From Sebaldella sp. S0638 (lineage in GTDB: Bacteria; Fusobacteriota; Fusobacteriia; Fusobacteriales; Leptotrichiaceae), in the NCBI RefSeq assembly GCF_024158605.1, contig NZ_JAMZGM010000009.1, positions 1-64,000 of the forward strand: 64,000 nt of DNA, written 5' to 3'. Below are positions 6,054-38,731 of this stretch, piece after piece (positions within the stretch are counted from its first letter, which is position 1; each line of letters starts with the position of its first letter). Both the position numbers and the translations under genes were made by a program. Under the pieces are notes generated by a model that saw only the letters and a list, made by a program, of their open reading frames with translations, was not told the DNA's origin and did no database searches.

Positions 6054-7169
6054 ATGGATACTATTATGACATTTTTATCAAAATTTAGAAATATGTGTAA
6101 AAAAGAACTTTTAAGCACTTTGAAGGATCCCGCCACAAGAATAGTGCTTTTCCTTCCGGTTGTTTTGCAGACTATTTTATTTGGATATGCAGCTACTTAT
6201 AATCTTGATAATGTACCATATGCCATTATTGATAACAGCAGAAGCAAAACTTCCGCCGAGTTTCTTTCCAAACTTGACGGAACAGGTGTTTTCCAACGTA
6301 TACAAACTCTGATGAATGCCGGCGAGATCGCTAAAAGTATAGATTCCAACAAAGTAATGATGGTAATAAATATAGATTCAGATTTTGAAAGAAATCTTGC
6401 TGAGGGGAATCCCGCTTCGATTCAGGTAATTACAGACGGGCGTAATACTATGACTGCAGCAGTGGCTTTAGGGTATATCAGTGATATTGTCGGGGAATAT
6501 AATGCCGAAAGAGACGGGGGAAAACAGCTTATAAACATTGAAACACGGGCATGGTATAATCCTAACCTTATTACCAGATGGACTTTTCTTCCGGGAATGA
6601 TAGCAGTCTTCAGTCTGATACAGATTTTGATGCTTGCAGGATTATCTGTTGCCAGAGAAAGAGAGCAGGGGACTTTTGACCAGCTGCTTGTTACTCCTCT
6701 TTCTTCTACTGAAATTTTAATGGGGAAAGCTGTGCCTCCTATACTCATAGGCATGCTGCAGGTAACGTTTATACTGCTTTCATGTATATTTTGGTTTAAA
6801 ATACCGCTGAGCGGTTCATTAATTACATTATACCTTACTGTTTTTATATTTATGGTCAGCTGTACCGGAATAGGATTGTCCATATCGGCAATTTCCACAA
6901 GTATGCAGCAGGTAATGGTGTATACTTTTGTTCTTATGATGCCGATGGTTTTATTATCAGGTCTGGCAACACCTGTGCGTAATATGCCCGAAATTCTTCA
7001 GATAGCTACTTACGCTAATCCTCTCCGTTTTGGAGTGGAAGCTATAAGAAGGGTTTATCTCGAAGGCAGCAGTCTGGCTCAGGTTGCCCATAACTTTATC
7101 CCTATGGCAGCTGTCGCAGCCGTCACTCTTCCGTTGGCTGTCTGGTTATTTCGGAATAAATTAACTTAA
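6054..7169 (+). CDS. ybhR: ABC-2 type permease (YbhR-like)
   Basis: Second permease subunit, 371 aa, with the same layout as its upstream paralogue: N-terminal membrane segment, periplasmic domain, then a membrane block containing AREREQGTFDQLLVTPLSS. The conserved ...GLATPVRNMPEILQ segment before the last helices is typical of the family. It starts 13 bases after ybhS. In E. coli the YbhFSR pump has been linked to export of cationic drugs and to Na+(Li+)/H+ exchange; the cargo here cannot be read from sequence. Confidence 0.87.
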   Translation: MDTIMTFLSKFRNMCKKELLSTLKDPATRIVLFLPVVLQTILFGYAATYNLDNVPYAIIDNSRSKTSAEFLSKLDGTGVFQRIQTLMNAGEIAKSIDSNKVMMVINIDSDFERNLAEGNPASIQVITDGRNTMTAAVALGYISDIVGEYNAERDGGKQLINIETRAWYNPNLITRWTFLPGMIAVFSLIQILMLAGLSVAREREQGTFDQLLVTPLSSTEILMGKAVPPILIGMLQVTFILLSCIFWFKIPLSGSLITLYLTVFIFMVSCTGIGLSISAISTSMQQVMVYTFVLMMPMVLLSGLATPVRNMPEILQIATYANPLRFGVEAIRRVYLEGSSLAQVAHNFIPMAAVAAVTLPLAVWLFRNKLT

Positions 7170-24036: not shown

Positions 24037-25071
24037 TTATATATTTATATTTCCGCCGGACTGCTTAATTTTCTTTATTAATTCCGGAATAATTTCGTAA
24101 AGATCGCCGCATACAGGATAATGAGCCATATCAAAAATTCCTGCATCAGGGTCTGTATTTATCGCAATTATATTTTCTACACCTGAAATCCCCGCCATAA
24201 ACTGCACTGATCCGGAAACTCCGCATGTAATAATAAGTTTTGACCTCACAGCCTGACCTGAAAGTCCTATCTGTCTGTCATGCGCAAGCCATCCTTTTTC
24301 CACAATTCCCCTTGTTGCGGCAATTCCGCCGTTTAATACCTCTGCCAGTCCTTCAAGTAAATGGAGGTCTTCTTTTTTCTTTATTCCTTTTCCTGCCACT
24401 ATAAGTATTTCCTTTTCCTGAATCCCTTCCTTTTTTTCAATTGGTATATTCTCTATCACTGTCATCCTGCTTTGCGTGAATTCACCGGCATTCTTATGTA
24501 TAAATTCAATATCATTATTATAAACCGGGTCTGCCGGGGGGACTATATTATACCTTACTGTTGCGAACTGCGGTCTGGAATTCTCTGTTAGTATTTCTGC
24601 CATTATATTTCCGCCGAAAGCCGGTCTTATCTGCACCAAATCTGTATTTTCAAGGAGTTTTAGCTCTGTACAGTCTGCTGTAAGTCCCGTATTAAAATTA
24701 ACTGCTGCCAGAGGTGCAAGGGCTCTTCCTTCCGGTGTTCCTCCGATTAATACTATAGACGGCTTTAATTCCAGAATACAGTCCGACACCATTTTTTCAT
24801 ATGAATCTGCCAGAAAATTTCCGTCTGTTTCATATAAAAAGACCTTTTTCAAAGGATAATTTTTCAGTTCATCTTTTATCCGGTCTGTGTTTTTCCCGAC
24901 GGCAACGCCGTGTATATTATATCCGGTCTGCTTTGCCAGTTCTCCGGCTTTTCCTATCATCTGGTAACTCACAGGATGAACTTCTCCGTGAAAAGTCTCT
25001 ATATACACCAGTATATCTTTCCAGTCTTCCTTATTTATTTTTTTTATTTCCCTGTTTTTAATTACAGTCAT
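24037..25071 (-). CDS. etfA: electron transfer flavoprotein alpha subunit (second copy)
   Basis: FAD-binding subunit of an ETF heterodimer; partner is the EtfB encoded 13 bases upstream. The 344 residues contain the EtfA N-terminal half (DILVYIETFHGEVHPVSYQM) and the C-terminal FAD domain with LSGQAVRSKLIITCGVSGSV and INTDPDAGIFDMAHYPVCGD, both strongly conserved. No N-terminal ferredoxin domain is present, unlike the A. woodii lactate-dehydrogenase EtfA. The gene order FAD oxidase-EtfB-EtfA suggests it serves the GlcD-like enzyme just upstream. Confidence 0.92.
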   Translation of the reverse strand: MTVIKNREIKKINKEDWKDILVYIETFHGEVHPVSYQMIGKAGELAKQTGYNIHGVAVGKNTDRIKDELKNYPLKKVFLYETDGNFLADSYEKMVSDCILELKPSIVLIGGTPEGRALAPLAAVNFNTGLTADCTELKLLENTDLVQIRPAFGGNIMAEILTENSRPQFATVRYNIVPPADPVYNNDIEFIHKNAGEFTQSRMTVIENIPIEKKEGIQEKEILIVAGKGIKKKEDLHLLEGLAEVLNGGIAATRGIVEKGWLAHDRQIGLSGQAVRSKLIITCGVSGSVQFMAGISGVENIIAINTDPDAGIFDMAHYPVCGDLYEIIPELIKKIKQSGGNINI

Positions 25072-25084
25072 ATTTTTTTCCTTT

Positions 25085-25873
25085 TCAGTTTTTTATGCTG
25101 TTTATTATTTCAAATATCCTGTCCGCAGACTCCAAAGCACTTTTTATCATTATATCCTGCTTTTTTGTTTTTACTGCGGGATATATCTTTCGTACTTTAG
25201 TAGGTGATCCTGATAATCCGTAGTTTTCTCTGTTTTTATCTTCAAGTTCGTCCAATGTAATAATTTTTATCTCTTTTTTTCTGGCTGCCATTTTCAGTTT
25301 AAGTGACGGAAGCCTTGGAATATAAATATTACGCTCCACTGATAAAAGGCAAGGATATGGTACTCTGATAACAGCCGTTTCCTTTTCCATGGTTTGTTCA
25401 ACAGTTATTCCGTCTGTTTCCGCGGAGTTTATCTTTGACACCCAGTTAATTCCGGGAATCCCGAACCATTTCGCCAAGGCACCGCTTACCTGTGCAGTAT
25501 CTCCGTCTGTTGTCTGTTTTCCGCAGATTATCAGATCATAATTATCGGTTAATTTCATTCCCTGCATTAGTGTATATGATGTAGCCAGTACATCTGCCCC
25601 TGAAAAACGCTTATCGCTGAGAAGATACCCTCTGTCTGCACCCATTCCGTATGCTTCCCTCATTACATCTGCTGCTTTTTCAGGCCCCATAGTAAATACA
25701 TCAATATTTGCCTCTGTTGCTTCTTTTATCTGCAAGGCAGTCTCCAATGCAGGAAGATCATAAACATTTAAAACAGGCTCTATTCTGTCTCTTAGAATGA
25801 CCCCTGTTTCAGGATCAGTCTTCCCTTCGGAAAATGCCGGAACCTGTTTTATACAAACTGCTATTTTCAACAT
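25085..25873 (-). CDS. etfB: electron transfer flavoprotein beta subunit (second copy)
   Basis: Nucleotide-binding ETF subunit, 262 aa. It has the EtfB core: KIAVCIKQVP, a conserved DLPALETALQIKE helix, and ICGKQTTDGDTAQVSGALA, the loop that contacts AMP or a second FAD. The glycine/aspartate-rich loop is fully conserved, unlike the copy at 28.3 kb. It follows the GlcD-like gene by 16 bases and precedes etfA by 13. Confidence 0.92.
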   Translation of the reverse strand: MLKIAVCIKQVPAFSEGKTDPETGVILRDRIEPVLNVYDLPALETALQIKEATEANIDVFTMGPEKAADVMREAYGMGADRGYLLSDKRFSGADVLATSYTLMQGMKLTDNYDLIICGKQTTDGDTAQVSGALAKWFGIPGINWVSKINSAETDGITVEQTMEKETAVIRVPYPCLLSVERNIYIPRLPSLKLKMAARKKEIKIITLDELEDKNRENYGLSGSPTKVRKIYPAVKTKKQDIMIKSALESADRIFEIINSIKN

Positions 25874-25889
25874 ATAAATCTCCTGTATT

Positions 25890-27314
25890 TTATATCATAT
25901 TATCAGGATTCCATAATCCTTCGGGGTCATAGATATCCTTTTCTTTTCTTATTTTATCAATAATAGTTTTAGGCATTATTTCCAGAAAAAAATCTCTTTT
26001 CAGCTTTCCAATGCCGTGTTCCGCTGCTATTTCCCCATTTTTTTCAATTATATCTTCTGACCATTTTCTAAGCAGGTTTCTTCCTTTGATATACTCCTCG
26101 TAATTCTCGGGAAGTATATTTATATGAAGATGATTACCGCCTATATGACCAAAAACACACCCTTTCAGCCCAGATTTTTTCAGATCTTCCTCATAGTTTT
26201 CCACTATACTCCCAAAATGCCCGCTGCTTAAACTCATGTCAGTCCCAAGTTTTGTTATCCTCGGTTCTTTTTGTCTTATTTCCTCAATAAACAAATTCGC
26301 CGATTCAGGGGCAGCATGGCGGAAGTCCCGCATTTTTTCTATTTCAGCCTCACCTGACACAGCCCAGCTGTTATCCGGATCACTATTTGCTTCCATTGCT
26401 GTTTCCATTAGAATTTCCGCTGTCTGTTCCACAGAATCCTCGCTGTTTCCATGAATTTCTATATATATCATTGCTTCCACATTATTATCTATATCGGGTA
26501 TTTCCTTTAGTTTTGTTACAGTTTCCTTTCTTTTCTGTATTATATCAATTGTATTTTTATCAAGATACTCCATTACTGCGATATTGCTTCCATCTATGTC
26601 CAAGTCTTTCTCAAAAAATTTTCCGATAAATAAAAAAGCATCTTTTTTATCATAAAAAAAGAATCCTATCCCCCAGATTTCCTTTGCCTGCGGCAGTAAT
26701 TCAAGAGTCAGTTCTGTAATAACACCGTACATTCCTTCGCCGCCCAGATATACATCTATTAAATCTGTCTGTTCTCCCAAAAAGATGACCGTTTCACTGC
26801 CTCTTTTTATTTCCCTGATTGTCTGATCCGAATGTATTACTCTTATTGCACTGATATGCTCTCTTGCTCCCCCGTATAAATAAGCACTGATTCCCTTTGC
26901 ATTGCACCCTGCGATTCCTCCTACAGTTGCTGTTACTTCCGTGGGGTCGGGAGCCCAGAAAAGCTTTCTGCCGTTACTTAGTTTTCTTACTGATTTTTTC
27001 AATTCCATCAGGGTCACTCCTGCTTCTACCCGTAGTAACGCCCCGTCTTCTGTCTCTGTATATTCTTTTATATTATTCAGTCTGGAAAGATTCATAATAT
27101 GCCCGCCTGCAGGAACTGCACAGCCTGTAATTCCTGTTTTCCCGCCCTGAATAGTTATTGCAGTGTTATTTTCTTTCATCACTGACATGACTTCCAGTAT
27201 CTCTTCCTCATTTTCCGGAAAGGATATACTTTCTGCAACACCTGCCATTCTGGACTCATCCCGTAAATATTCCGCATACTTTTCCTCCATGGGAAAAATC
27301 AGCTGCTTTTTCAT
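25890..27314 (-). CDS. FAD-linked oxidoreductase, GlcD/D-lactate dehydrogenase type
   Basis: Flavoenzyme that oxidises a 2-hydroxy acid or similar substrate and passes electrons to the ETF encoded next to it. The 474 residues show an FAD-binding PCMH domain (about 35-215; ITIQGGKTGITGCAVP and PDPTEVTATVGGIAGCNAKG) and a C-terminal cap ending with AAEHGIGKLKRDFF. Length and order match LctD of the electron-confurcating LctBCD lactate dehydrogenase of Acetobacterium, but no lactate permease or racemase is nearby. The substrate is therefore open. Confidence 0.85.
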   Translation of the reverse strand: MKKQLIFPMEEKYAEYLRDESRMAGVAESISFPENEEEILEVMSVMKENNTAITIQGGKTGITGCAVPAGGHIMNLSRLNNIKEYTETEDGALLRVEAGVTLMELKKSVRKLSNGRKLFWAPDPTEVTATVGGIAGCNAKGISAYLYGGAREHISAIRVIHSDQTIREIKRGSETVIFLGEQTDLIDVYLGGEGMYGVITELTLELLPQAKEIWGIGFFFYDKKDAFLFIGKFFEKDLDIDGSNIAVMEYLDKNTIDIIQKRKETVTKLKEIPDIDNNVEAMIYIEIHGNSEDSVEQTAEILMETAMEANSDPDNSWAVSGEAEIEKMRDFRHAAPESANLFIEEIRQKEPRITKLGTDMSLSSGHFGSIVENYEEDLKKSGLKGCVFGHIGGNHLHINILPENYEEYIKGRNLLRKWSEDIIEKNGEIAAEHGIGKLKRDFFLEIMPKTIIDKIRKEKDIYDPEGLWNPDNMI

Positions 27315-27360
27315 AATCCTCTCCTTTCAAAAAAATTTGTAAAAATTATTTTGGATATAT

Positions 27361-28314
27361 TCACTGATCAGCTATCAGCTTCACCAGTTCTTCCAGTATT
27401 TTTTCATAGTCGTCTATTATTGCCACATCTGAAGATTTCACCACAAAGGCTCTCTCATCTGTATTTACAGATATTATAAATTCACTTTTCTCCACTCCGG
27501 AAAAAAAAGCTGATGCTCCCGATGCTCCTGCTATTATGCATAATTCAGGGCTTGTCATAGCACCTGACACACCGATAAGCTGATTCATAGGTGCAAAAGC
27601 ACTTGTTGCTACAGGTCTGCTCACTCCCACTTCTGCTCCCAGCCTTCTTGCGATTTCCTCCACTGCTTTCATTTTTTCCCTGCTTTTTACTCCTTTTCCC
27701 GCTGCAAGGATAAATTTAGCATGTTCAAGTCCGCTCTCTTTTTCCTCTTTTTCAAATTTATATTCCTTAATAAAACTGTCTTCTGTAATTTCTGTCATAT
27801 CAATATCATGAACTATTTTATTACCAGTATCCGGAACCTCTCTGTATCCTGTACCTTTGGCAAGAGACAGACACCACGGCTTTTTATATAGTATAAAATC
27901 CCCTTTCATATTTCCCAGATAAACAAATTTACTGCATAATATACCATTCTGCAGCATTTTTACATTATTTGTTCCAGCGAGAGAACTTCCCTTCATTCTT
28001 ACAGAAAATCTCACAGATAATTCACTTCCTGAAAAGTCACCGGGAAACAAATATAAATCAGATTTATCCCCACTTTCAGTTTTCTCCAGTATTTTCAATA
28101 TATTCTCAGGCTGATATCCCTTTACTTTTATCATTAATATATTTTCAAGCGGAGAACCTGAAATTAACTCCTCTCTTTTTTCTTCCGCAGAATAAAATAT
28201 CACTGTTCTTCCTTCTGTAAAGTCTTTGTTATTGTTATACAGAAAGTTATTAATCTCTTGTGCCTGAGAAACAAAGCTGTCAGAACATCCGTTTAATACA
28301 ACTGTATATTTCAT
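27361..28314 (-). CDS. electron transfer flavoprotein alpha subunit (first copy, YgcQ-like)
   Basis: EtfA-family protein of 317 residues with a weakly conserved N-terminal half and a clear C-terminal FAD domain (AAGKGVKSREKMKAVEE, LIGVSGAMTSPELCIIAGASG, ISVNTDERAFVVKSSDVAII). Compared with canonical EtfA the second FAD motif is changed (TDERAFVVKSS rather than TDPDAGIFDMA). Position after a YgcU-like oxidase and an EtfB suggests equivalence to E. coli YgcQ. Its start overlaps the end of etfB1 by four bases. Confidence 0.82.
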   Translation of the reverse strand: MKYTVVLNGCSDSFVSQAQEINNFLYNNNKDFTEGRTVIFYSAEEKREELISGSPLENILMIKVKGYQPENILKILEKTESGDKSDLYLFPGDFSGSELSVRFSVRMKGSSLAGTNNVKMLQNGILCSKFVYLGNMKGDFILYKKPWCLSLAKGTGYREVPDTGNKIVHDIDMTEITEDSFIKEYKFEKEEKESGLEHAKFILAAGKGVKSREKMKAVEEIARRLGAEVGVSRPVATSAFAPMNQLIGVSGAMTSPELCIIAGASGASAFFSGVEKSEFIISVNTDERAFVVKSSDVAIIDDYEKILEELVKLIADQ

Positions 28315-29132
28315 AGTTTTTCCAGCCTTTCTTTCAGATACTTCTCATACAAAATCCGGGTTTTTTCCCCGGGAGTATCTCCTTTTATGATTATCCCCTC
28401 TCTTTTTGTATCTGTTTTTTCCATATTTACAAATTCATAATCCACGCTATATTCCCTCATGAGTTCCCTTATTCCAAACTCTTCACCATTAAAAACCTTC
28501 ACAGGAGTTTTTCCGTACTTCATTTTATCTTTTAATGTCGGTACCCTTAAATGAGAAACAGGTGCATTTCCTACTGATATTACCACAGGTGTCTCTACTG
28601 TCTGCGTAAGTATTCCCTCATCTGTCATACTTGCTATCCGGAGAGTTTTTTCAGTGTCCGGTTTTATGTCTGTTACCTGTGTAATACAAGGCCATCCCAG
28701 CATTTCCGATACTAAAAGCGGAGTTTTTGCATTATCGCCTTCACTGCTCTGTCTTCCCAGTATAAGAACATCCTGATCTCCATATTCTTTTGCATATCTG
28801 CTTATTACCGATGCAGTTACCTCGGGAAAAAATCTTATATCCTCGTTATTTTCAATTCTGATACCTTCCTGAAATTTTAAAGCATATAAATTTTTCAAAT
28901 AAACATCTGACTTTTCTCCTGCTATTGTCAATGCAGAAAGCTTCACCGGAATATCGAGACTCTCTGATAAATCAGAAAGCCTCAGTGTCATTTCCAGTGC
29001 ACTCTCATCAAAGCAGTTTAATATACTTCTTACATAAGTCATATCTACATTCAGCTTTGAATCTATATTCCATGCATCTTCAGACATCATCTCAAAATCA
29101 GGAACTGCTTTAAAACATACTAATATATTCAT
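28311..29132 (-). CDS. electron transfer flavoprotein beta subunit (first copy, YgcR-like)
   Basis: EtfB-family protein, 273 aa, with NILVCFKAVPDFE at the start, FDESALEMTLRLSD and ILGRQSSEGDNAKTPLL. The nucleotide loop (SSEGDNAK) deviates from the canonical TTDGDTAQ seen in the other copy, so the cofactor may differ. The gene overlaps both neighbours by four bases (ATGA), tying its translation to the YgcU-like oxidase and to etfA1. Confidence 0.82.
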   Translation of the reverse strand: MNILVCFKAVPDFEMMSEDAWNIDSKLNVDMTYVRSILNCFDESALEMTLRLSDLSESLDIPVKLSALTIAGEKSDVYLKNLYALKFQEGIRIENNEDIRFFPEVTASVISRYAKEYGDQDVLILGRQSSEGDNAKTPLLVSEMLGWPCITQVTDIKPDTEKTLRIASMTDEGILTQTVETPVVISVGNAPVSHLRVPTLKDKMKYGKTPVKVFNGEEFGIRELMREYSVDYEFVNMEKTDTKREGIIIKGDTPGEKTRILYEKYLKERLEKL

Positions 29133-30574
29133 TTTTCTATTGGTATCAATGTTCCCATATTCATAATTCCATTAGGATCAAATGATTTTTTCAGTGTTTC
29201 AAGCAGATAGTATGAAGAACCGAATTCTTCTTTTACCCAAGGTGCCCTGTGTTTTCCGATTCCATGGTGGTGAACCATTGAACCTCCGGCTTTTATAGTT
29301 TCTTCTACTATTATTGTATTTATCGGATTATGATATTTTGTAATTTCTTCCTCTGGTTTTATATCCACAAGGTTATAATAATACATAAAATACATATTTG
29401 TCCCGTTCATATAGCTGTGCGACGAATGTCCGCCCATCATTGTAATATCCGGTATTTCTTCTTTTATTCTTCTGCAGCATGCTTCATAGATATTATAAAT
29501 AACATCCCAGCTTCCTGACACTTCTGTGGTAAATCCTATATTTTGAGTCTCCTTTATTTCTTCTCTTTCCTCAGCTACCTTTTTCGGATCCCAGTTCAAG
29601 TTATCAAACCATGTTTTTATCAGCTGGCTGTCTACTTTTTTACATTCGGGATGTTTTCCTACTATCTCTTCTATTCCTGCCGCTGTGGCATCAGCAATAG
29701 CTTTTGTTCCTTCTGCCATGAATATAAGAACACATTTATTATTTGCAAAATGCGAAAAATAATAATCCCCGTCTTCTTCGTCATATAAACGTGCTACAGA
29801 AGGTTTATATCCTTCTACCATTACTTCACGCAGAATTTCAAATCCTGTTTTCATGTCATCCAGTACATACCCCATAAATATATTATTTTCCGGTCTGTAC
29901 TTATATATTTTTACTGTTACTTCTGTTATAAAACATAAAGCTCCTTCATTACCCACTACTATATGTCTTATATCAGGCCCTGCAGCTCTTCTCGGTACAT
30001 TTTTTATTCTTGTAATAAGACCATTTGGGAAAACTGCCTCAAGGCCCACTATCATATCTTCTATACCGCCGTATAATGTCGAAAACTGCCCCGTGCTTCT
30101 TACAGCGACTATTCCGCCCATTTGTGCCAAAGGTTTTGACTGAGGTGAATGTCCTGTTGTATATCCCTGTTCTCTCAGTATATTTTCCACTACTTCAAGG
30201 GGAACACCGCATTCACACGTTACCTGCATATTATAGGTGTCTATGTTAAGTATTTTGTCCATTCTTGAGCCGTCAAGGACTATCGAGTCCGGAACTACCG
30301 TTTCCAGCCCTCCTTCTATAGAAGAACGTCCTGTTCTGGGTACCACATTTATTTTGTTTTCATTGGCAAATTTCAGAATATCTGCTGTTTCCTGACTGCT
30401 TTCGGCATAAACCACTGCTGCGGGCAGCGGCTGTGTGTACACTCCGCTTACATCCTCATATTTTCTGAAACGGTCTATACTGCTTTCTTTCAAAACCTGT
30501 TCATCAGTAACTACTTTTTCTGCCCCCAATATCCCAATGAGTCCCTCTACTATTTTTTCCCTTGATAATGACAT
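29129..30574 (-). CDS. ygcU: FAD-linked oxidase, alkyl-DHAP-synthase-like (YgcU-like)
   Basis: Flavoprotein of the vanillyl-alcohol-oxidase superfamily, 481 aa (E. coli YgcU is of about the same size). The PCMH FAD-binding domain occupies about 40-220 (VPRTGRSSIEGGLETVVPDS, then AQMGGIVAVRSTGQFSTLYGG) and the C-terminal domain carries GGSMVHHHGIGKHRAPW (about 428-444), a His cluster shared with alkylglycerone-phosphate synthases. No N-terminal targeting sequence. It probably oxidises a hydroxyl substrate and hands electrons to the ETF encoded immediately downstream. Binding site GAGGAGACAAAT. Confidence 0.82.
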   Translation of the reverse strand: MSLSREKIVEGLIGILGAEKVVTDEQVLKESSIDRFRKYEDVSGVYTQPLPAAVVYAESSQETADILKFANENKINVVPRTGRSSIEGGLETVVPDSIVLDGSRMDKILNIDTYNMQVTCECGVPLEVVENILREQGYTTGHSPQSKPLAQMGGIVAVRSTGQFSTLYGGIEDMIVGLEAVFPNGLITRIKNVPRRAAGPDIRHIVVGNEGALCFITEVTVKIYKYRPENNIFMGYVLDDMKTGFEILREVMVEGYKPSVARLYDEEDGDYYFSHFANNKCVLIFMAEGTKAIADATAAGIEEIVGKHPECKKVDSQLIKTWFDNLNWDPKKVAEEREEIKETQNIGFTTEVSGSWDVIYNIYEACCRRIKEEIPDITMMGGHSSHSYMNGTNMYFMYYYNLVDIKPEEEITKYHNPINTIIVEETIKAGGSMVHHHGIGKHRAPWVKEEFGSSYYLLETLKKSFDPNGIMNMGTLIPIEK

Positions 30575-30621: not shown

Positions 30622-32055
30622 TTATTTAAAAATCGGATATGATTTTTCCAGAATTTTATCTGAATAACTTGTTATATGTTTATATACTTCATTATTTGCT
30701 TTATCATATAAATCTGTATTCTCTCCATTTGGATGGAATACGTCTTTTACCTTTACCATTTTCTTAATTGCTTCATCATAAGAATCGTATATTCCCAGTC
30801 CTACTGCCACACATATTGCTGACCCCACACTTGCAGATCCGTTTACTACATTTCTTGATGCAGGAAGACCGAATACATCGGAGAAAATCTGCATAAACAG
30901 CTCACTGTTAGAACCTCCGCCGGAAATAATTATGCTGTCCATTTTTACATTTAACTCGTCACACATTTCATCCACACGGTTTTTCATTGTCATAGCAATA
31001 GCTTCCAGTATTGATCTGTACATATGCGCTCTTGTATGTCTCCCGTCAAAACCTACCATGAGACCTTTTCTGTATACTTTATCCGAAGGTGCAAGCCAGT
31101 CAAGAACTGTCATTAGTCCGTTGCTTCCCGCAGGAACTTTTTCTGCTTCGTTATTCAGATATTCTTCAGGTGAAACGCCTAATACTTCTGCTTTTTTTAC
31201 CACATCGTCACCAAGCAGATCTTTAAACCAGCTTACTGTCCACATTCCACGACGTATACCATTGCTTTCATACAGGTAATTTCTTGGTGTTGATGCAAAA
31301 TTAACCCAAAAATTACTTGTATTTTTCAAATTCTCATGTCCCGGCACCATGGAAGCAATATATGTCCCTAATGATATTAGTGCTGTTTTTTCTGATAAAA
31401 GCCCTGCTCCGAGCGCTTCCACCGCTTTATCATTAGCTGTTGCCACTACAGGAATTCCCTGTGGTATGCCTGTCAGCTTTGCCGCTTTTTCAGTTACATA
31501 TCCCAGTATATCTCCCGGCATTTTCAGATTAAACAACATCTCTCTCGGTATATTGTTATACTTCATTACCTCTTCATCAGTACTCCATTCCCATGTGTCA
31601 GTATTTACAGGCCACTGTCCCTGATAGTTTGCCGCAGTATCATTAAATTCCCCTGTAAATCTGTGTGTTATATATCCAGATGATGTAGTAACATATCTGA
31701 CTTCCGGATTAACGTGTTCATGAGGTCTTGATACTCTTGCGTCCATCCAGCTCATTGCAGGTGAAGCCAATGTCCCGTCTTCTTTCAGCAAAACCCTGCA
31801 AAATCTTATTGTACATAATCCCAATCCTATAATATCGCTGACATCTCCCGGAAAATTATCCAGTGCTCTTCTGCAGGCAATGACAATAGAATCCCATAAA
31901 TCATCTTCCGGATGCTCCACTATTCCCGGTTCTGCCAAGTGCATTGGTTTTAGTTTCTGGCTTCCCTCACAGATAATATTTCCCTCCAGATCAAATATAA
32001 CAACCTTCGAACTTTGTGATCCGCCGTCTACACCAATTATATATTTTTTAGCCAT
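30622..32055 (-). CDS. ygcE: FGGY-family carbohydrate kinase (YgcE-like)
   Basis: ATP-dependent kinase of a sugar or polyol, 477 aa. N-terminal actin-like fold starts GVDGGSQSSKVVIFDLEG; the FGGY signature region reads MVGFDGRHTRAHMYRSILEA; the C-terminal ATP site has IIISGGGSNSELFMQIFSDV. The family includes xylulokinase, glycerol kinase and erythritol kinase; the motifs do not decide the substrate. The ribosome binding site is weak (GGGATGAAATT, some 10 bases away). It lies between the SDR and the YgcU-like oxidase, as part of a ygc-type gene set. Confidence 0.85.
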   Translation of the reverse strand: MAKKYIIGVDGGSQSSKVVIFDLEGNIICEGSQKLKPMHLAEPGIVEHPEDDLWDSIVIACRRALDNFPGDVSDIIGLGLCTIRFCRVLLKEDGTLASPAMSWMDARVSRPHEHVNPEVRYVTTSSGYITHRFTGEFNDTAANYQGQWPVNTDTWEWSTDEEVMKYNNIPREMLFNLKMPGDILGYVTEKAAKLTGIPQGIPVVATANDKAVEALGAGLLSEKTALISLGTYIASMVPGHENLKNTSNFWVNFASTPRNYLYESNGIRRGMWTVSWFKDLLGDDVVKKAEVLGVSPEEYLNNEAEKVPAGSNGLMTVLDWLAPSDKVYRKGLMVGFDGRHTRAHMYRSILEAIAMTMKNRVDEMCDELNVKMDSIIISGGGSNSELFMQIFSDVFGLPASRNVVNGSASVGSAICVAVGLGIYDSYDEAIKKMVKVKDVFHPNGENTDLYDKANNEVYKHITSYSDKILEKSYPIFK

Positions 32056-32116: not shown

Positions 32117-32893
32117 TTATCTTACGAGATATCCTCCGTCTACTACCAGTAAGTGACCGTTTACATAGTCAGATGCCTTACTTGCTAAAAATACTGTTGC
32201 TCCCATTAAGTCTAATGTCTCTCCCCAACGATTTGCCGGTATATGATCCAACACTCTCTGGTTTGTTTCAGGATTGCTTCTTGTTTTTGTTGTTATTTCT
32301 GTTGCATAGTATCCCGGTGCTATTCCGTTTACCTGAATATTATACTGTGCCAGTTCGTCGCAATATGCTTTTGTAAATCCGGCAAGCCCGTGCTTCGTTG
32401 CTGAATAAGCCGGAGACCATTGTCCTCCGAGATATGAGAAAAGAGAACAAATATTTATTATTTTTCCGCTTCTTTGCGGTATCATTCTTTTAGCGGCTTC
32501 ATAGCTTAGTTCGAATGCTGCTGTAAGGTTAATATCTATCATTGCATCCCATTCTTTTCTGCCGAACTCAAGAACTTCCGCAATTTTGCAAATTCCCGCA
32601 CTGTTTACAAGAATATCCACAGAACCCAGACTTTCCACACAGGCATCTATTATTTTTTTTGCTGCTCCCTCTTCTGTAATATCTGCTTTCATAAATACCA
32701 TTTTCCCGCCTTCAGCTTCTATAAGCTTCTTCGTAGTTCCGTCATCTTCCATTATGCTGGGAATAAATATATTTGCCCCTGCCTTTGCCAGTGCCAGCGA
32801 AAAAGCCTGTCCAAGGCCGGTATTTCCTCCTGTAACTATTGCATTCTTACCTTTTAAAGAAAAATAATTCATTGAAAAATCTGTTATATTCAT
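32117..32893 (-). CDS. ygcW: short-chain dehydrogenase/reductase (YgcW/KduD-like)
   Basis: NAD(P)-dependent oxidoreductase, 258 aa. Rossmann motif VTGGNTGLGQAFSLALAKAG (about 18-37), NSAGI, catalytic Ser in ICSLFSYLGG, YSATK (Tyr-x-x-x-Lys) and the C-terminal VNGHLLVVDGGYLV. The GGNTGLGQ form and overall pattern resemble 2-deoxy-D-gluconate 3-dehydrogenase KduD and E. coli YgcW. Binding site AGGAGGAAACAGG. Acting before or after the FGGY kinase, it likely interconverts a polyol or aldonate and its keto form. Confidence 0.87.
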   Translation of the reverse strand: MNITDFSMNYFSLKGKNAIVTGGNTGLGQAFSLALAKAGANIFIPSIMEDDGTTKKLIEAEGGKMVFMKADITEEGAAKKIIDACVESLGSVDILVNSAGICKIAEVLEFGRKEWDAMIDINLTAAFELSYEAAKRMIPQRSGKIINICSLFSYLGGQWSPAYSATKHGLAGFTKAYCDELAQYNIQVNGIAPGYYATEITTKTRSNPETNQRVLDHIPANRWGETLDLMGATVFLASKASDYVNGHLLVVDGGYLVR

Positions 32894-32968: not shown

Positions 32969-34249
32969 TTAATCATTCAGTACCTGTACACCTTCCTGAA
33001 CTTTTTCCTTCTGCACTTCCCGTTTATTTTCCAGATTGTAGATTATTCTTTTTACAAAATACATTATTACAGTTCCTATTATTGTTGTTGCCAGCATAAA
33101 CATAAACATATATTTGTATCCCTGTATTCCCGGATACTGGTCAAGCCATCTTCCTATGAGCTTATAAATGTATATATCCGGAATGTAACCTATCAGTGAC
33201 GCGAATCCCACAGCAGCTCCCGTTATTCTCAAAGGAACCTCAAGCTCGTCCACTATTGCAAAATAAAGTCCTCTCATTACATACACGGTTACGCCCATCA
33301 GGATTATATTCGCCACTATCAACATCATCATATTGTGCGATCCCGGCGTCACCAGAAATATCACCAGTGAAATAAGAATAATTATATATCCTGTGAAAAG
33401 CACCTTTGTTCTTGACCCTATTTTATCTGCAATTATTCCCCCGCCGGCTCCGCCGAGAAACTGCATAATATATCTCTGAAATATTCCTATTGCTGCTGCC
33501 ACTCCCACAGAAGCACCGAATACATTCTGGAGATACGGCGGTGTATAAGTCATTCCTGCAAATATAGAATATGTCGTAAACACTACTCCGCAAAGAAGCC
33601 ATACACGCGGCATTTTTATTACTGTCACAATATCGTCAAGTACAGGCGTTGTTTTTTCTGACTCTTTAGGGTCTCTTATTACCAGCCATGTTAATATACC
33701 TAATACTATATGAAGAATCGAATAGACATTTATTACCCATCCCATTCCATACGTTCCTTCACCTATTTTGGTATAAACTGCAAGCAGTGCATATGCTGCT
33801 ATTGCTGACGCTAGTCCTCGACCGCCTTCAAGCATCCCGTACATTCTCCCCTGTTCATCATGATTCCCCAGAGTTCTTGTGACTTTCAGCAAAGCTGCCC
33901 AGTATGTAAGTATTGTTGATACTCCCCAAAACGCATGAAGCAGCATGTTCATCCCGTATGACGGAAAAGTCGCAAAGTAAAATCCTGTAATCCCTGTTGA
34001 TATAAACGAAAATGTCAGCATCTTTCTCGCAGAAATACGATCCGCAAGCCATCCTCCGGGAAAATACGAAAGCATTGCCACTACTGCATATACTGTCATC
34101 AGATTCCCATATTGTTCGTGACTAAATCCCAATGCTTCCTGAAGCTGTGTATAAAATGCATATCTTAAATATGGAAGCTGAAATATAATTCCTCCGCCGG
34201 CTGCTAATACTGCCAGACTTATCCATTTTTTCTGAGCTTTTTCACCCAT
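32969..34249 (-). CDS. yqcE: MFS transporter (YqcE-like)
   Basis: Inner-membrane secondary transporter, 426 aa with 12 predicted membrane segments and the MFS loop motif GGWLADRISARK after helix 2. It is the first gene of the operon that also encodes SDR, kinase and FAD oxidases, so it probably imports their substrate. Size and N-terminal pattern (KWISLAVLAAGGGIIFQLPY, LGFSHEQYGNL) agree with E. coli YqcE as I remember it, but no alignment was possible. Binding site AAGGAGTGAAAAGG. Confidence 0.82.
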   Translation of the reverse strand: MGEKAQKKWISLAVLAAGGGIIFQLPYLRYAFYTQLQEALGFSHEQYGNLMTVYAVVAMLSYFPGGWLADRISARKMLTFSFISTGITGFYFATFPSYGMNMLLHAFWGVSTILTYWAALLKVTRTLGNHDEQGRMYGMLEGGRGLASAIAAYALLAVYTKIGEGTYGMGWVINVYSILHIVLGILTWLVIRDPKESEKTTPVLDDIVTVIKMPRVWLLCGVVFTTYSIFAGMTYTPPYLQNVFGASVGVAAAIGIFQRYIMQFLGGAGGGIIADKIGSRTKVLFTGYIIILISLVIFLVTPGSHNMMMLIVANIILMGVTVYVMRGLYFAIVDELEVPLRITGAAVGFASLIGYIPDIYIYKLIGRWLDQYPGIQGYKYMFMFMLATTIIGTVIMYFVKRIIYNLENKREVQKEKVQEGVQVLND

Positions 34250-34423
34250 GACCTTTTCACTCCTTTTATTTATATCTTATTTTTTATAACTCCACTCTCT
34301 GCTTATTAGTTGCCGGCTAATGTTTTACTTTTTGTCCCTGAAATTTTCTGTTCACCTCCTTACTTTTTAGTTAACTAATGCATTATTTATTATTTAAACA
34401 TTTTTTAATATAAAAATTTGGTA

Positions 34424-34474
34424 CAAAAAAAGAGAGAAAAGTCATTTTTTGTTTAAAAAACTACTTTTCTCTCT
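34424..34474 (-). terminator. leader terminator (attenuator) of the MFS-SDR-kinase-ETF operon
   Basis: Perfect 12-bp stem: ACTTTTCTCTCT (34463-34474) with AGAGAGAAAAGT (34431-34442), 20-base loop, then seven T on the minus strand. It lies between the promoter and the first gene, so transcription would stop unless antiterminated. The promoter-side arm of the stem belongs to the element shared with the other leader (34463-34481). Confidence 0.8.
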
Positions 34475-34481
34475 CCTCTAG
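34463..34481 (-). promoter_or_regulatory. shared leader element, copy A (candidate GlpP-type RNA target)
   Basis: On the minus strand CTAGAGGAGAGAGAAAAGT. It matches 16 of 19 bases of copy B at 37561-37579, and similarity extends upstream into the promoter. In this copy it forms the first arm of the leader terminator, so protein binding could prevent hairpin formation. Confidence 0.6.
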
Positions 34482-34497
34482 TAATTTTATCATTAAC

Positions 34498-34525
34498 ATT
34501 ATACCCTCATTTTTCATTTTGTCAA
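34498..34525 (-). promoter_or_regulatory. promoter of the ygc-like/ETF operon
   Basis: On the minus strand TTGACA (complement of 34520-34525), 16 bases, TATAAT (complement of 34498-34503). It is just downstream of the glpP-like stop codon, and about 250 bases before the MFS start. The remaining DNA between leader terminator and MFS gene (34250-34420) holds no gene. Confidence 0.8.
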
Positions 34526-34546
34526 CAGACAAAATAAATAATTTTT

Positions 34547-35110
34547 TTACATTGACCATATTTCCTGATTTGTTGTGGAAATTGCAACTGCTCCTGCATC
34601 CAGTGCTGCCAGCACATCTTCTTTTTCACACACCAGACCTGCTGCTATTATAGGGATATTTACTTTTTCCACCATCCATGAAATTACCTTAGGCCATCCC
34701 GGCAATACCTCTATACAGTCAGGCTGTGACATCTCTATCTGTTTTTCCACGTTATTAAAAGAAAAAGAATCTATCAGAAATAATCTGTGTATGCTGTAAA
34801 GACCGTTTAGCCTTGCTGCTCTTACCATTGGAGCCTTTGAGCTTAATATGCCGTCTACTTTTGTGTTTTTCTTCAGAAACTGAATTACAATCTCTTTATT
34901 TGAAAATCCTTCAATAAGATCGACATTTATAAAAGCCATTTTCCCTGAATCTTTTACCTTTTCCACTATTTCTCTTATATTTACGATATTTCCATATAAT
35001 ATAAATATTATTTCACAATCAGATAATAACGTTACCTCCAGACTTTTGTCATCTTTTACCCCTGCTATTACCGGATTATCACCCAGCAATTCATGTAAGT
35101 CATTTTTCAT
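34547..35110 (-). CDS. ygcP: GlpP-family antiterminator (YgcP-like)
   Basis: RNA-binding antiterminator of the glycerol-3-phosphate-responsive family, TIM-barrel-like, 187 aa (usual length). Conserved stretches are MAFINVDLIEGFSNKE, ILSSKAPMVRAARLNGLYSIHRLFLIDS, IEVLPGWPKVISWM and PIIAAGLVCEKEDVLAALDAGAVAISTT, the last forming the phosphate-binding end of the barrel. Binding site GGAGGTTTTT. It closes the OpuC-type transporter operon and directly precedes the promoter of the ygc-like operon; both operons have a leader terminator. The effector may be glycerol-3-phosphate or another phosphorylated intermediate. Confidence 0.85.
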   Translation of the reverse strand: MKNDLHELLGDNPVIAGVKDDKSLEVTLLSDCEIIFILYGNIVNIREIVEKVKDSGKMAFINVDLIEGFSNKEIVIQFLKKNTKVDGILSSKAPMVRAARLNGLYSIHRLFLIDSFSFNNVEKQIEMSQPDCIEVLPGWPKVISWMVEKVNIPIIAAGLVCEKEDVLAALDAGAVAISTTNQEIWSM

Positions 35111-35146
35111 AAAAACCTCCGTTAAATTTTTTATCCCAAAATTATT

Positions 35147-35881
35147 TTACATTACTTTCAGTTTATTTCCAAAGAAATCTTTCCCAAAATCTGAATTTAT
35201 CCCGCTGAAAAAATCCTCTTTTGTACCCAGCTGATCAATTTCCCCGTTATTCATCAGCACTATCCTGTCCCCGAGCTTAAATGCCTCGTCTATATCATGC
35301 GTCACCAATATTATCGTAACACCAAGTTCTCTTTGTATTTTTTTTATCTCATCCTGAAGATTTCTTCTTGTGACCTCGTCTAACGCCCCGAATGGTTCAT
35401 CCATAAGTATAATCTCAGGAGAATCTGCCAATGCCCTTGCTACACCCACTCTTTGCTGCTCTCCTCCGCTCAGCTCGCCGGGATACTTCCCCAGATAATC
35501 CTCAGGAAGTTTCATCATCCTAAGCAGTTTTTCCGTTCTCTTTTTTATCTCAATTTTGCTTTTATTTTTTAGTTCCATTGTGTAACCCACATTTTTTTCA
35601 ATGGTCATATGCGGAAAAAGTTCCGTATTCTGTATTACATAACCTATTTTTCTTCTCAGTTCTATCTCATTCCATGTTTCTATCTCTTTATTAAACACCT
35701 CAAGATTCCCTGAATTTTTCTTCTCAAGAAAATTTACAAGCCTCAGCAATGTTGATTTTCCTCCTCCGCTTTTCCCAAGAATAGTTATAAATTCCCCTTT
35801 ACTGACAGTAAGATTTATATTCCGCAGCACTTCATTGCTGTCATATGATTTATATACACCTTCAAATTTAATTATACTCAT
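35147..35881 (-). CDS. ABC transporter ATP-binding protein, OpuCA/ProV type
   Basis: ATPase of an osmoprotectant/quaternary-amine-type importer, 244 aa. Walker A GKSGGGKST, signature LSGGEQQRV, Walker B IILMDEPFGALDE and the switch His in ILVTHD are all present. The C-terminal CBS domains that sense ionic strength in OpuCA/OpuAA are absent, so it may not be an osmotically gated system. The start overlaps the permease gene by four bases. Confidence 0.87.
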   Translation of the reverse strand: MSIIKFEGVYKSYDSNEVLRNINLTVSKGEFITILGKSGGGKSTLLRLVNFLEKKNSGNLEVFNKEIETWNEIELRRKIGYVIQNTELFPHMTIEKNVGYTMELKNKSKIEIKKRTEKLLRMMKLPEDYLGKYPGELSGGEQQRVGVARALADSPEIILMDEPFGALDEVTRRNLQDEIKKIQRELGVTIILVTHDIDEAFKLGDRIVLMNNGEIDQLGTKEDFFSGINSDFGKDFFGNKLKVM

Positions 35882-37428
35882 TTTATTAAGTTCCTTTCCT
35901 TTAAAAATGTCTTTGCCACTTCATAAGGGGATTTTTTATTTACATCCACCTCATAATTCAAATCCCTCATCTGTTCGTCACTTATGCTGTTATTAAGCTT
36001 TTCCAAAAGCTCTGCTGCTTTTGGATATTTCCGTACAGTATCTTCCCTGATAATAAATCCTGCATTATACTGCGGAAAATAATTTCTGTCATCTTTCAAT
36101 ATCACTAAATCGTGTTTTTTTATAAGGCTGTCGGTAGTAAATGAATTTATCACATCCACATTACCGTTTGACACAGCTTTATATTTCAGATTTACATCCA
36201 TTCCCACTGTTTTCCTAAAATTCATCCCGTACAGATCAGACATAGCATCAAATCCGTCTTCTCTCTCAAAAAATTCAAATTCTGCCGCAAACTTGTAATT
36301 CCCGCTTTTTTTCGCTAAATCTGAATATGTCTTTATATTCTCTTTTTCTGCAAGCTCTCTTTTCAAAGTAAGTTCAAAAGAGTTATTAAATCCTAAAAGT
36401 CCCAACCACTTGAAATTATAGTTTTTTTGATATTCTTCATTTAGTATCTTGTATAACTCATCCTGGTTTTTTATCATTTTCCTCTTCAAAACAGTAAGCC
36501 ACGCTGTTCCTGTATATTCGGGATAAAGGTCTACTTCTTTATTCAGCATTGCCAGATGTATATTTCTTGTTCCTCCCGCTATATTGAACTTTCTTTCTAC
36601 TTTTATATCAGTATTTTCCTCTATAAGAATCCCCGCCATCTCGCCGAGTATTATCTGTTCTGTCCAAGGTTTCGAGGCTACCACTATTTTCTCATGTTTT
36701 TTTATACTTCCCGAAAAAGCCGCTGCAAAAATAAATATAAATATTAGCCATGTAAAATAAAACTGCTTTTTCTTCTTTCCGGCTTTACCATTTATCTTTT
36801 TTATCGTATAGCTTTCCCATCTTGAAATAAGAAAATCAAACGTAATATTCAGCATAATAATAAGTATGCTCCCTATTACAATCAAATTAGAATTATTTGT
36901 ATTTATTCCCCTGTAAATGCTTTCCCCCAGACCGCCTGCCCCTATAAAAGAAGCTATACCTGCAAGTGAGATTGTCATTGTCACCATAGTCTTAAACCCT
37001 GATACAAGCACCGGCATTGCCAGCGGGATCTGTACTTTTAGAAAAGTCTGTCTTTCTGTGGCTCCCATTGCTTTTGATACTTCCAGTGTCTTTTTATTTA
37101 CATTTTCAAGTCCTGTGTATGTTGCCGTTACAATAGGCAGAAGACCGTAAATCACCAGAGTGGTCACTGCATTAAAAAAGCCTATGCCTACAAAAGATAT
37201 AAGCAGTCCAAATGTGGCTATTGACGGAATGGTGTAAATAGAATTAACAACAGGCAGTATTACCAGCCTTAATTTTTTATTGTAATAAATCAAAATCCCC
37301 AGCATAATACCGAAAACAGTGGATAGAACAATCGCTGTTACTGATATTTGAATATGCTGGACTATTAGTTCCATATAATATTGTTTTTTGTCCATAAAAT
37401 CTTTAAGCAGAATACTTATATAATTCAT
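35878..37428 (-). CDS. fused permease and substrate-binding protein, OpuC/ProWX type
   Basis: Importer subunit of 516 residues. The N-terminal part (about 1-215) is a BPD permease with membrane segments and the EAA-type loop EVSKAMGATERQTFLKVQIP; a further membrane segment (about 222-240) leads to an extracytoplasmic OpuAC/ProX binding domain (about 247-516, with KPWTEQIILGEMAGILIEE and DLYPEYTGTAW). This architecture is known for choline/betaine/carnitine-type importers, and the aromatic ligand-box cannot be verified by eye. First gene of an operon with the ATPase and the GlpP-like protein. Binding site AAAGGGAGCTTT. Confidence 0.87.
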   Translation of the reverse strand: MNYISILLKDFMDKKQYYMELIVQHIQISVTAIVLSTVFGIMLGILIYYNKKLRLVILPVVNSIYTIPSIATFGLLISFVGIGFFNAVTTLVIYGLLPIVTATYTGLENVNKKTLEVSKAMGATERQTFLKVQIPLAMPVLVSGFKTMVTMTISLAGIASFIGAGGLGESIYRGINTNNSNLIVIGSILIIMLNITFDFLISRWESYTIKKINGKAGKKKKQFYFTWLIFIFIFAAAFSGSIKKHEKIVVASKPWTEQIILGEMAGILIEENTDIKVERKFNIAGGTRNIHLAMLNKEVDLYPEYTGTAWLTVLKRKMIKNQDELYKILNEEYQKNYNFKWLGLLGFNNSFELTLKRELAEKENIKTYSDLAKKSGNYKFAAEFEFFEREDGFDAMSDLYGMNFRKTVGMDVNLKYKAVSNGNVDVINSFTTDSLIKKHDLVILKDDRNYFPQYNAGFIIREDTVRKYPKAAELLEKLNNSISDEQMRDLNYEVDVNKKSPYEVAKTFLKERNLIK

Positions 37429-37520
37429 AAAGCTCCCTTTTTGTCCTTATTTTTAGTTGTATTAAACAAAAATAATTTGAAAAAAATTATTTTTTATTTA
37501 TATTTAAATTAAATAAAAAC

Positions 37521-37557
37521 AAAAAAAAATAACCTTTATATATATAAATATATAAAG
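37521..37557 (-). terminator. leader terminator (attenuator) of the OpuC-type operon
   Basis: Perfect 10-bp AT stem CTTTATATAT / ATATATAAAG (37534-37557) followed on the minus strand by GGTTA and nine T. It lies between the promoter and the first gene, directly after the shared leader element. The stretch from here to the start codon (37429-37520) holds no gene. Confidence 0.65.
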
Positions 37558-37560
37558 ATC

Positions 37561-37579
37561 ACTTTTCTCTGCTCTCTAG
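37561..37579 (-). promoter_or_regulatory. shared leader element, copy B (candidate GlpP-type RNA target)
   Basis: On the minus strand CTAGAGAGCAGAGAAAAGT, matching copy A (34463-34481) at 16 of 19 bases. Flanking bases up to the -10 are similar too. It is three bases before the leader terminator stem. Confidence 0.6.
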
Positions 37580-37594
37580 CAATCTTAATAATAA

Positions 37595-37623
37595 GGTATA
37601 CCTCATTTATCGGAATAAGTCAA
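37595..37623 (-). promoter_or_regulatory. promoter of the OpuC-type/glpP operon
   Basis: On the minus strand TTGACT, 17 bases, TATACC. It aligns with the TTGACA/TATAAT promoter of the ygc-like operon when the shared elements are superimposed. Confidence 0.6.
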
Positions 37624-37664: not shown

Positions 37665-38210
37665 TTAATCTAAGCATTTATAATAAAGATTATTTTCTTT
37701 TAAAATCTTATTATATTCATTTTCTGCAAAATCACCAAAAACCAGAATATTATATTCATAGCTGCCTTTAAGCATAAATTTTAATTTATCAAAATAAAAA
37801 TCAGCTGTTCTATAAGTTCTTAGCTGAAATTTTAAAATAATTTCCAAGTCTTCTAATTTTTCTATCTTGAATTTTTTTCCATATAAAAGTTCCTTGCCGC
37901 TCAAAGAACTCAACACATCCTTTAATTGTTTCTTTTCCAATTCATCATATAAGAATAGATTTTCTTCTTCATATAAACCAAGATCGTCCATTTTATCAAA
38001 ATACCATAATCGTACTATAACACTGGAATCATTTTGGAAATAAAATTCTTTAAACATTTTTATGATATTTCTCTGATATTCTAAATGTTTTTCCCTTTCA
38101 TTTTTATCTGAAATATTTCCAAAAGATTTATCAAATAGTTCGCTATATTCTTCTAATCCCAGTGGCTCTTTAAAACCATTTATTAATCCAACCTCATCTT
38201 CATAATCCAT
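37665..38210 (-). CDS. uncharacterised acidic protein
   Basis: Cytoplasmic 181-residue protein without signal peptide or membrane segment and with no family that I recognise. It is rich in Glu, Lys, Tyr and Phe (e.g. VIVRLWYFDKMDDLGLYEEE). A TTG five codons upstream is in frame, but the ATG at 38210 has a GGAG site nine bases before it. It follows two tandem DUF7336-like genes on the same strand after 69 bases. The size, composition and place among small accessory genes are like immunity proteins of polymorphic toxins, but no toxin is seen. Confidence 0.65.
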   Translation of the reverse strand: MDYEDEVGLINGFKEPLGLEEYSELFDKSFGNISDKNEREKHLEYQRNIIKMFKEFYFQNDSSVIVRLWYFDKMDDLGLYEEENLFLYDELEKKQLKDVLSSLSGKELLYGKKFKIEKLEDLEIILKFQLRTYRTADFYFDKLKFMLKGSYEYNILVFGDFAENEYNKILKENNLYYKCLD

Positions 38211-38279
38211 TGTAAATTTCTCCAATCATGATATCTTTTCCATCTTTGCTTACTAATCCAGAATTTTTCTTTCTTTGAT

Positions 38280-38501
38280 TTAAACTGTAATAAATCCGTC
38301 TCCCCATTCAAAATCTTTATCCACTTCCCATTTATCTATCCAAAAACCATCAATATGTGATTTAAATCCCTTTATTTTCATATAATCTTTCATGGCTTCT
38401 CTGGCTTTCTTTTTTGTGGAATAAAGTCCGATTGTCCTAACTTCTTCATAGTCTTTATCTTTTCCAACGTTATACGTATGAGTTAATCGATATACTACCA
38501 T
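38280..38501 (-). CDS. DUF7336-like small protein (second of tandem pair)
   Basis: 73 residues. The pattern is a beta strand (VVYRLTHTYN), a GLYSTKKKAREAMKDYMKIKGF helix and a FWIDKWEVDKDFEWGDGF tail, as in the DUF7336 family (V-E-H-...-G-x-Y-S-S-K-E-K-A... type). Clearly a paralogue of the gene just upstream. AAGGAGTGGAATAAAA precedes its start and contains the end of that gene, so the two are translationally coupled. Function unknown. Confidence 0.65.
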   Translation of the reverse strand: MVVYRLTHTYNVGKDKDYEEVRTIGLYSTKKKAREAMKDYMKIKGFKSHIDGFWIDKWEVDKDFEWGDGFITV

Positions 38502-38503
38502 TT

Positions 38504-38731
38504 TTATTCCACTCCTTTCTTATACCAGGATTTAAAACCTTTTTTATGATAACTCTTATCTATCTCCATTTTTTTTATTCTAAATCCTTCTTTATACTTC
38601 TTAAACCCCTTCTTTTTTTGGTAATCTTTTATCAATTCTTCTGCTTTTTCTTTATCTGAAACTACTCCCATTATTTTCCCTTCGGAAAATCCGTTGATTT
38701 TTATAGTATGTTCTACCAGATATAATTTCAT
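38504..38731 (-). CDS. DUF7336-like small protein (first of tandem pair)
   Basis: 75 residues with the same layout as its neighbour: LYLVEHTIK strand, GVVSDKEKAEELIKDYQKKKGF helix, FRIKKMEIDKSYHKKGF tail. Binding site AGGAGGAAAGTGG region. Tandem copies of this size occur widely in accessory loci, often with immunity-like genes; nothing here says what they bind. Confidence 0.65.
   Translation of the reverse strand: MKLYLVEHTIKINGFSEGKIMGVVSDKEKAEELIKDYQKKKGFKKYKEGFRIKKMEIDKSYHKKGFKSWYKKGVE

Follow-up and report, generated by a model that had tools for sequence, protein, structure and literature searches.

This study concerns two operons, and the leaders that precede them, on the minus strand of a 64,000-nucleotide (nt) stretch of Sebaldella sp. 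S0638 (contig NZ_JAMZGM010000009.1, positions 1 to 64,000; hereafter the window). OpuC-type transporter genes (37428-35147) are followed by a GlpP-family gene (35110-34547), which is the final gene of the opuC-type operon and encodes a protein here called YgcP, and then by a ygc-like operon running from 34249 to about 24037 (Table 1). An initial annotation of this region claimed that each operon begins with a promoter, a shared 19-base element and a hairpin with a T-run, and inferred that the GlpP homologue controls both operons through the element. Comparison with other genomes supports this control. We assign a probability of about 0.82 to the reading that YgcP controls both operons, its own included, via an RNA switch in their leaders.

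Table 1. Predicted features of the opuC-type and ygc operons in the window
Feature	Coordinates	Strand	Evidence
opuC-type operon promoter, TTGACT-17-TATACC, weak	37595..37623	-	read by eye; fails promoter scan
opuC antiterminator hairpin	37555..37586	-	9-bp stem in truncated-leader minimum free energy (MFE) fold; covariation
opuC terminator hairpin and T-run	37515..37576	-	MFE -29.0 kcal/mol, z -8.8; R1 34.3 bits
OpuC/OsmF-like fused permease and substrate-binding protein	35878..37428	-	PF00528, PF04069
OpuC/ProV-like ATP-binding cassette (ABC) ATPase	35147..35881	-	PF00005; best NCBIfam match proV, below cut-off
YgcP, GlpP-family (G3P_antiterm) regulator	34547..35110	-	PF04309 207.7 bits (cut-off 27)
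ygc operon promoter, TTGACA-16-TATAAT	34498..34525	-	12/12 consensus
ygc antiterminator hairpin	34457..34488	-	truncated-leader MFE fold; covariation
ygc terminator hairpin	34426..34479	-	MFE -23.5 kcal/mol, z -5.3; R1 42.5 bits
Major facilitator superfamily (MFS) transporter, ygcS-like	32969..34249	-	PF07690
Short-chain dehydrogenase/reductase (SDR), ygcW-like	32117..32893	-	PF00106; 79% identity to E. coli ygcW region
FGGY kinase, ygcE-like	30622..32055	-	PF00370/PF02782; 55% to E. coli
Flavin adenine dinucleotide (FAD)-linked oxidase, ygcU-like	29129..30574	-	PF01565/PF02913; 69% to E. coli
Electron transfer flavoprotein (ETF)-like subunits, ygcR/ygcQ-like	27361..29132	-	PF01012 for 28311-29132; 27361-28314 tblastn synteny only
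Second FAD oxidase and ETF-like pair	24037..27314	-	open reading frames (ORFs); same set in Caproiciproducens

Leader elements and their predicted folds

The 19-base element reads CTAGAGAGCAGAGAAAAGT in the opuC leader (37579-37561, minus strand) and CTAGAGGAGAGAGAAAAGT in the ygc leader (34481-34463, minus strand). The two copies lie where the initial annotation had placed them and are identical at 16 of 19 positions. The best local alignment between the intergenic stretches of both operons scores 42 (2 of 2000 dinucleotide shuffles score as high), and it extends into the promoters as had been claimed. The ungapped match of the two elements is weak alone (12/300 shuffles reach it). The likeness between the two leaders is only moderately significant, and the case is therefore carried by comparative evidence. 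Promoters had been reported at both operons; the one before ygc matches the consensus perfectly, whereas the one before opuC fails the promoter scan and is seen by eye only.

When truncated, both leaders fold into a hairpin with a 9-bp stem and a 14-nt loop that holds a purine core, AGAG-N2-4-AGAGA; we term this hairpin the antiterminator. The opuC hairpin consists of the arms AAGATTGCT (37586-37578) and AGTGATCTT (37563-37555) around the loop AGAGAGCAGAGAAA (37577-37564), and the ygc hairpin of the arms AAAATTACT (34488-34480) and AGTAGTTTT (34465-34457) around the loop AGAGGAGAGAGAAA (34479-34466). Each stem has a score of 18, reached by none of 66 mispaired flanks. Between the two stems, a G-C pair of opuC is replaced by A-U in ygc, a compensatory change, and the other differences are G-U exchanges. 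This hairpin is absent from the initial annotation; the hairpins with T-runs that it described in both leaders are recovered by folding as terminators. In the MFE folds of the full leaders, the terminator takes over the 3' arm of the antiterminator in both cases, and the 5' arm of the ygc terminator includes the antiterminator loop as well. Of the proposed order, element and then hairpin, the terminator hairpin stands, but the element overlaps the terminator 5' arm in both predicted folds. As modeled, each leader is an antiterminator/terminator switch whose two structures are mutually exclusive.

At the gathering score, Rfam 15 matched only tRNA in the window; in seven related loci its single match was a cobalamin riboswitch outside the leaders. 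The leaders themselves were unmatched. A cobalamin riboswitch lies near glpP in Cetobacterium (L119, 9311-9491, minus strand). The ygc terminator is near-symmetric, with an R1 score of 28.8 bits on the plus strand as well (34416-34472), so that it may terminate transcription in both directions.

Conservation and specificity of the switch

Every one of the 13 fetched ygc clusters carries the switch before one or more operons, and a scan that used a wider 5' register than the shuffled-pairing test below counted 26 such sites. The element, whose presence in orthologous leaders the initial annotation had made a check on its proposal, thus recurs in these clusters and also in many glp leaders near glpP. 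The clusters with the switch come from Streptomyces clavuligerus, two Enterococcus, two Serratia, an Enterobacterales metagenome-assembled genome, Caproiciproducens and its kin, and the window; near copies are included (the two Serratia, the two Enterococcus and the Caproiciproducens-like clusters). In Escherichia coli K-12 the switch precedes ygcW and yqcE-ygcE, and 4998 of 5426 complete genomes contain at least 80% of the length of the E. coli leader region. Both ygcW and yqcE-ygcE appear in a table of constitutive RpoD promoters (PMC3946193), which would fit control after initiation. OpuC-type transporter genes, ygcP and ygc genes lie together in Enterococcus and Caproiciproducens, and this gene linkage suggests that the transporter probably belongs to the ygc pathway. 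A further match, on the minus strand of L042 at 4633, was discounted as probably due to chance. One leader in Enterococcus raffinosus is separated from its expected SDR target by an IS110-family transposase gene (L126, 14593-16390).

Comparison loci were the best 80 of 200 confirmed GlpP-family loci, plus fusobacterial loci and annotated records. Leaders were selected by element and terminator only (at most one mismatch, a gene within 350 nt, stem score of at least 20, distinct sequence), and 45 of 263 candidates were kept, with the window excluded. Among 33 cluster representatives, the stem score of flanks paired with their own partner is 277, compared with 187 ± 15.6 for shuffled pairings, and none of 100000 shuffles reaches it. 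In alignment A4, which holds 14 YgcP-type leaders including both window leaders and two relic leaders (see below), 82.5% of the stem cells pair, compared with 31.7-50.8% in slid registers; the corresponding covariation scores are 0.465 and 0.088-0.204. All nine columns of the antiterminator 3' arm (28-36) fall within the terminator 5' arm, and 12 of 17 pairs of the terminator fold show at least one double change. Alignments A5 (broad) and A3 (short) were misaligned and were excluded from models. These pairing data bear on the alternative that YgcP binds a single-stranded purine stretch and blocks the terminator 5' arm, the upstream stem being incidental. The purine core does overlap the terminator 5' arm, and several of the 45 leaders (L034, L083, L120) have little or no upstream stem, but flank pairing above every shuffled pairing and a stem register that exceeds all slid registers make this alternative unlikely.

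A composite scan of the 80 loci yielded 41 sites in 33 loci. Reversed sequences gave 0 sites, but this control is too easy because reversal destroys terminators, and permuted motifs were hence used too. After the stem filter, AGAG/AGAGA ranks first with 36 sites against 59 letter permutations, of which five shifted or overlapping forms have 27-35 sites and the remaining 54 have 0-18; this control counts 36 true sites rather than 41 because merging preceded the stem filter. The bare core element was rejected as a detector, since 22 matches (at most one mismatch) in its own genome compare with 30 for the reversed pattern, indicating that the core by itself is not specific. Every counted site has the element followed by a terminator, though sites were selected for a terminator. 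This arrangement disfavors a YgcP that mainly affects mRNA stability instead of termination, a role with a precedent in GlpP, which also stabilises glpD mRNA according to a review (PMC7430163); we consider such a role very unlikely.

The AGAG-N2-4-AGAGA hairpin also precedes glp genes located close to glpP, in Clostridia, Fusobacteriaceae and Cytobacillus (one Bacillales species). Co-occurrence was tested with glpF (PF00230) leaders of Fusobacteriota, in 43 genomes with GlpP and 9 without. By relaxed criteria, tallied by hand from the listing, sites are present in 35/43 and 1/9 genomes, respectively (p = 1.3e-4), so that the element is absent from the glpF leaders of eight of the nine GlpP-less genomes. 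The sole exception is a draft genome in which the fetched stretch runs into a contig end; PF04309 occurs in 9/12 genomes of its genus. Another RNA-binding protein might also recognise the purine element, for example HutP, which is encoded in the source genome (146.7 bits) and binds NAG repeats (PMC7430163). HutP was found only in Bacillus subtilis among 14 control genomes, and the E. coli control has no HutP match yet carries two sites. The sites accompany PF04309 genes across phyla, HutP being the one other RNA-binding family searched, and HutP-controlled leaders were rejected as highly improbable.

Model R1, built from alignment A2 (11 leaders, window excluded), places the ygc and opuC leaders first and second in the 4.27-Mb genome, in a ranking that scored 150 of 3704 first-look candidates. 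A full R1 scan of the window again returned these leaders as the top two.

Several results weigh against control of both operons by YgcP through this switch. The isolated hairpins do not exceed shuffles in stability (z -0.96 and -0.90), which makes the support for the hairpin comparative, and the double-change pairs in A4 (5/9) are not unusual, since 92/500 shuffles reach this number and a +3 slide also gives 5. The strict composite scan leaves 47 of the 80 GlpP loci without a site, and the true motif, with 50 matches prior to stem filtering, trails three shifted motifs with 51-56. E. coli's own ygcN-O-P operon had no site in the cluster scan, and inspection by eye revealed no convincing leader site at divergent GlpP-like loci of Klebsiella, Listeria and Cupriavidus. 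By strict criteria, glpF leader sites occur in 21/43 genomes with GlpP and 1/9 without (p = 0.06). The test is confounded by family, all GlpP-carrying genomes belonging to one family and 7/9 GlpP-less genomes to another, and co-occurrence is thus supporting evidence only. R1 matches at E ≤ 0.1 appear in 18/33 family genomes, the source genome included, and a plain terminator in a GlpP-less member of the family scores 35.2 bits, above the 34.3 bits of opuC. R1 was therefore rejected as a stand-alone detector, and the opuC site rests on its element, stem and position, not on its R1 score. A near-identical ygc promoter and leader also lies beside pstA in two sister genomes without PF04309 (G089, L151 at ~3990-3870; G090, L152 at ~16700-16585; both minus strand). 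No orthologue of ygcU, the only ygc protein searched there, was found in either, and these leaders are best read as relics after loss of the cluster. The relics and the weak ungapped match might suggest that these leaders are all unregulated, as plain attenuators or relics, and resemble one another through recent duplication or chance, but the stem kept through a G-C/A-U double change and the recurrence of the switch at the ygc-cluster sites leave this scarcely credible.

In G090, a 630-aa ORF lies ~110 nt downstream of the relic leader, and glycosidase- and phosphotransferase system (PTS)-like ORFs come next (seen by eye). At the Klebsiella GlpP-like locus L125 (30% identity; FGGY kinase, SDR, PTS), a strong inverted repeat with a T-run lies upstream (7135-7167). 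It contains no recognisable AGAGA hairpin and is perhaps a divergent target.

YgcP and its proposed regulon

The assignment of YgcP to the GlpP family was confirmed by its PF04309 match, while its other match, NMO, is below the cut-off; no second PF04309 protein was found in the source genome. The 13 ygc-cluster proteins group together (82/73) in a tree built from 49 members of the GlpP family. The window YgcP is placed beside that of Streptomyces (98/88) and then those of Enterobacterales (90/66), not with fusobacterial GlpP, which suggests that it arrived horizontally. Since its clade is separate from fusobacterial GlpP, its ligand need not be glycerol-3-phosphate and may be different. A candidate ligand, by analogy with GlpK, is a product of the FGGY kinase. 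Two relatives, 3kts and 1vkf, emerged from a sequence search of solved structures; the molecules listed for both entries are the proteins. This separate clade, the covarying antiterminator hairpin and its overlap with the terminator are what the present analysis adds to the initial annotation.

The proposed mechanism is as follows. From the promoters we infer that transcripts start just before the 9-bp purine-loop hairpin. Without inducer, the nascent RNA would refold into the stronger terminator, whose 5' arm consists of the antiterminator 3' arm and part of its loop, and RNA polymerase would stop. The FGGY kinase probably makes the ligand, which would be a phosphorylated metabolite in the ygc pathway. 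Liganded YgcP would bind and hold the loop hairpin, allowing the polymerase to read on. Read-through would turn on both the transporter-ygcP operon, an autoregulation with positive feedback, and the ygc catabolic operon.

On balance, we lean somewhat toward a broader reading, in which the purine-loop hairpin is an ancient code of PF04309 proteins and the YgcP branch senses another phosphorylated metabolite to control an orphan catabolic regulon. If so, the code has been conserved across Fusobacteriota, Bacillota, Enterobacterales and Streptomyces, and the regulon includes the uncharacterised ygc genes of E. coli, with substrate uptake by an OpuC-type transporter in some bacteria. A regulator family known mainly from the glycerol genes of B. 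subtilis would gain a candidate for a defined RNA target, a covariation-supported motif without an Rfam 15 match in the scanned loci. The OpuC-type transporter would be tied to an unexplained catabolic pathway. It is further predicted that ygcP of E. coli K-12 controls ygcW and yqcE-ygcE by antitermination, and a leader reporter could provide a handle on the ygc substrate.

The ygc operon of the window carries two sets of FAD-linked oxidase and ETF-like pair (24037-30574, minus strand), as in Caproiciproducens. We take these double sets to resemble electron-bifurcating dehydrogenases. In the second set, the NCBIfam matches of 25893-27314 and 24040-25071 are below cut-off. Between pstA and the opuC operon, two similar-looking ORFs of ~70 aa each were seen by eye (38280-38731, minus strand), followed by a 186-aa ORF (37665-38225) without a Pfam match. 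Together they are a possible small lineage-specific cassette.

Comparison with known systems

Antitermination by GlpP is known in B. subtilis, and a search of the open-access literature returned no published description of the purine-loop hairpin or of YgcP targets. The ygcP gene of E. coli is annotated merely as a putative anti-terminator. The segments that an RNA-switch screen lists near ygcW differ by coordinates from the ygcW and yqcE leaders (PMC4448311). PMC2965389 does not mention glp or ygc, and PMC11109978 does not mention GlpP. The leader architecture resembles another class of antiterminators.

In the BglG/LicT/SacY systems, a small antiterminator hairpin, the ribonucleic antiterminator (RAT), overlaps the terminator and is held by a controlled protein. 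Two differences are that those regulators belong to an unrelated protein family and that the Sebaldella hairpin has an AGAGA-type purine loop. Membership of the BglG/SacY family, with a CAT RNA-binding domain and PRDs, was rejected, as the regulator matches only PF04309 and, below cut-off, NMO. Three features of the GlpP family are present: the PF04309 domain, an intrinsic terminator between promoter (weak at opuC) and first gene, and an element as in glp leaders near glpP.

The glpD, glpT and glpFK leaders of B. subtilis carry a GlpP site and a terminator (PMC9604022), and GlpP bound to glycerol-3-phosphate binds the antiterminator according to a review (PMC7430163). The Sebaldella system shares with it a PF04309-type protein and a 5' leader with promoter, putative regulator site and intrinsic terminator. 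It differs in that its predicted targets are the ygc and OpuC-type transporter operons and its protein is of the YgcP clade. The glpFK and glpD leaders of Cytobacillus carry the element, and those of B. subtilis were compared by description only. A further close likeness is to ygcP and the ygcNOP, ygcWUSRQ and yqcE-ygcE cluster of E. coli K-12. Unlike the window, that ygc region was read without OpuC-type genes, but it has a 57% identical regulator, the same kinds of genes and, before ygcW and yqcE, the same leader switch.

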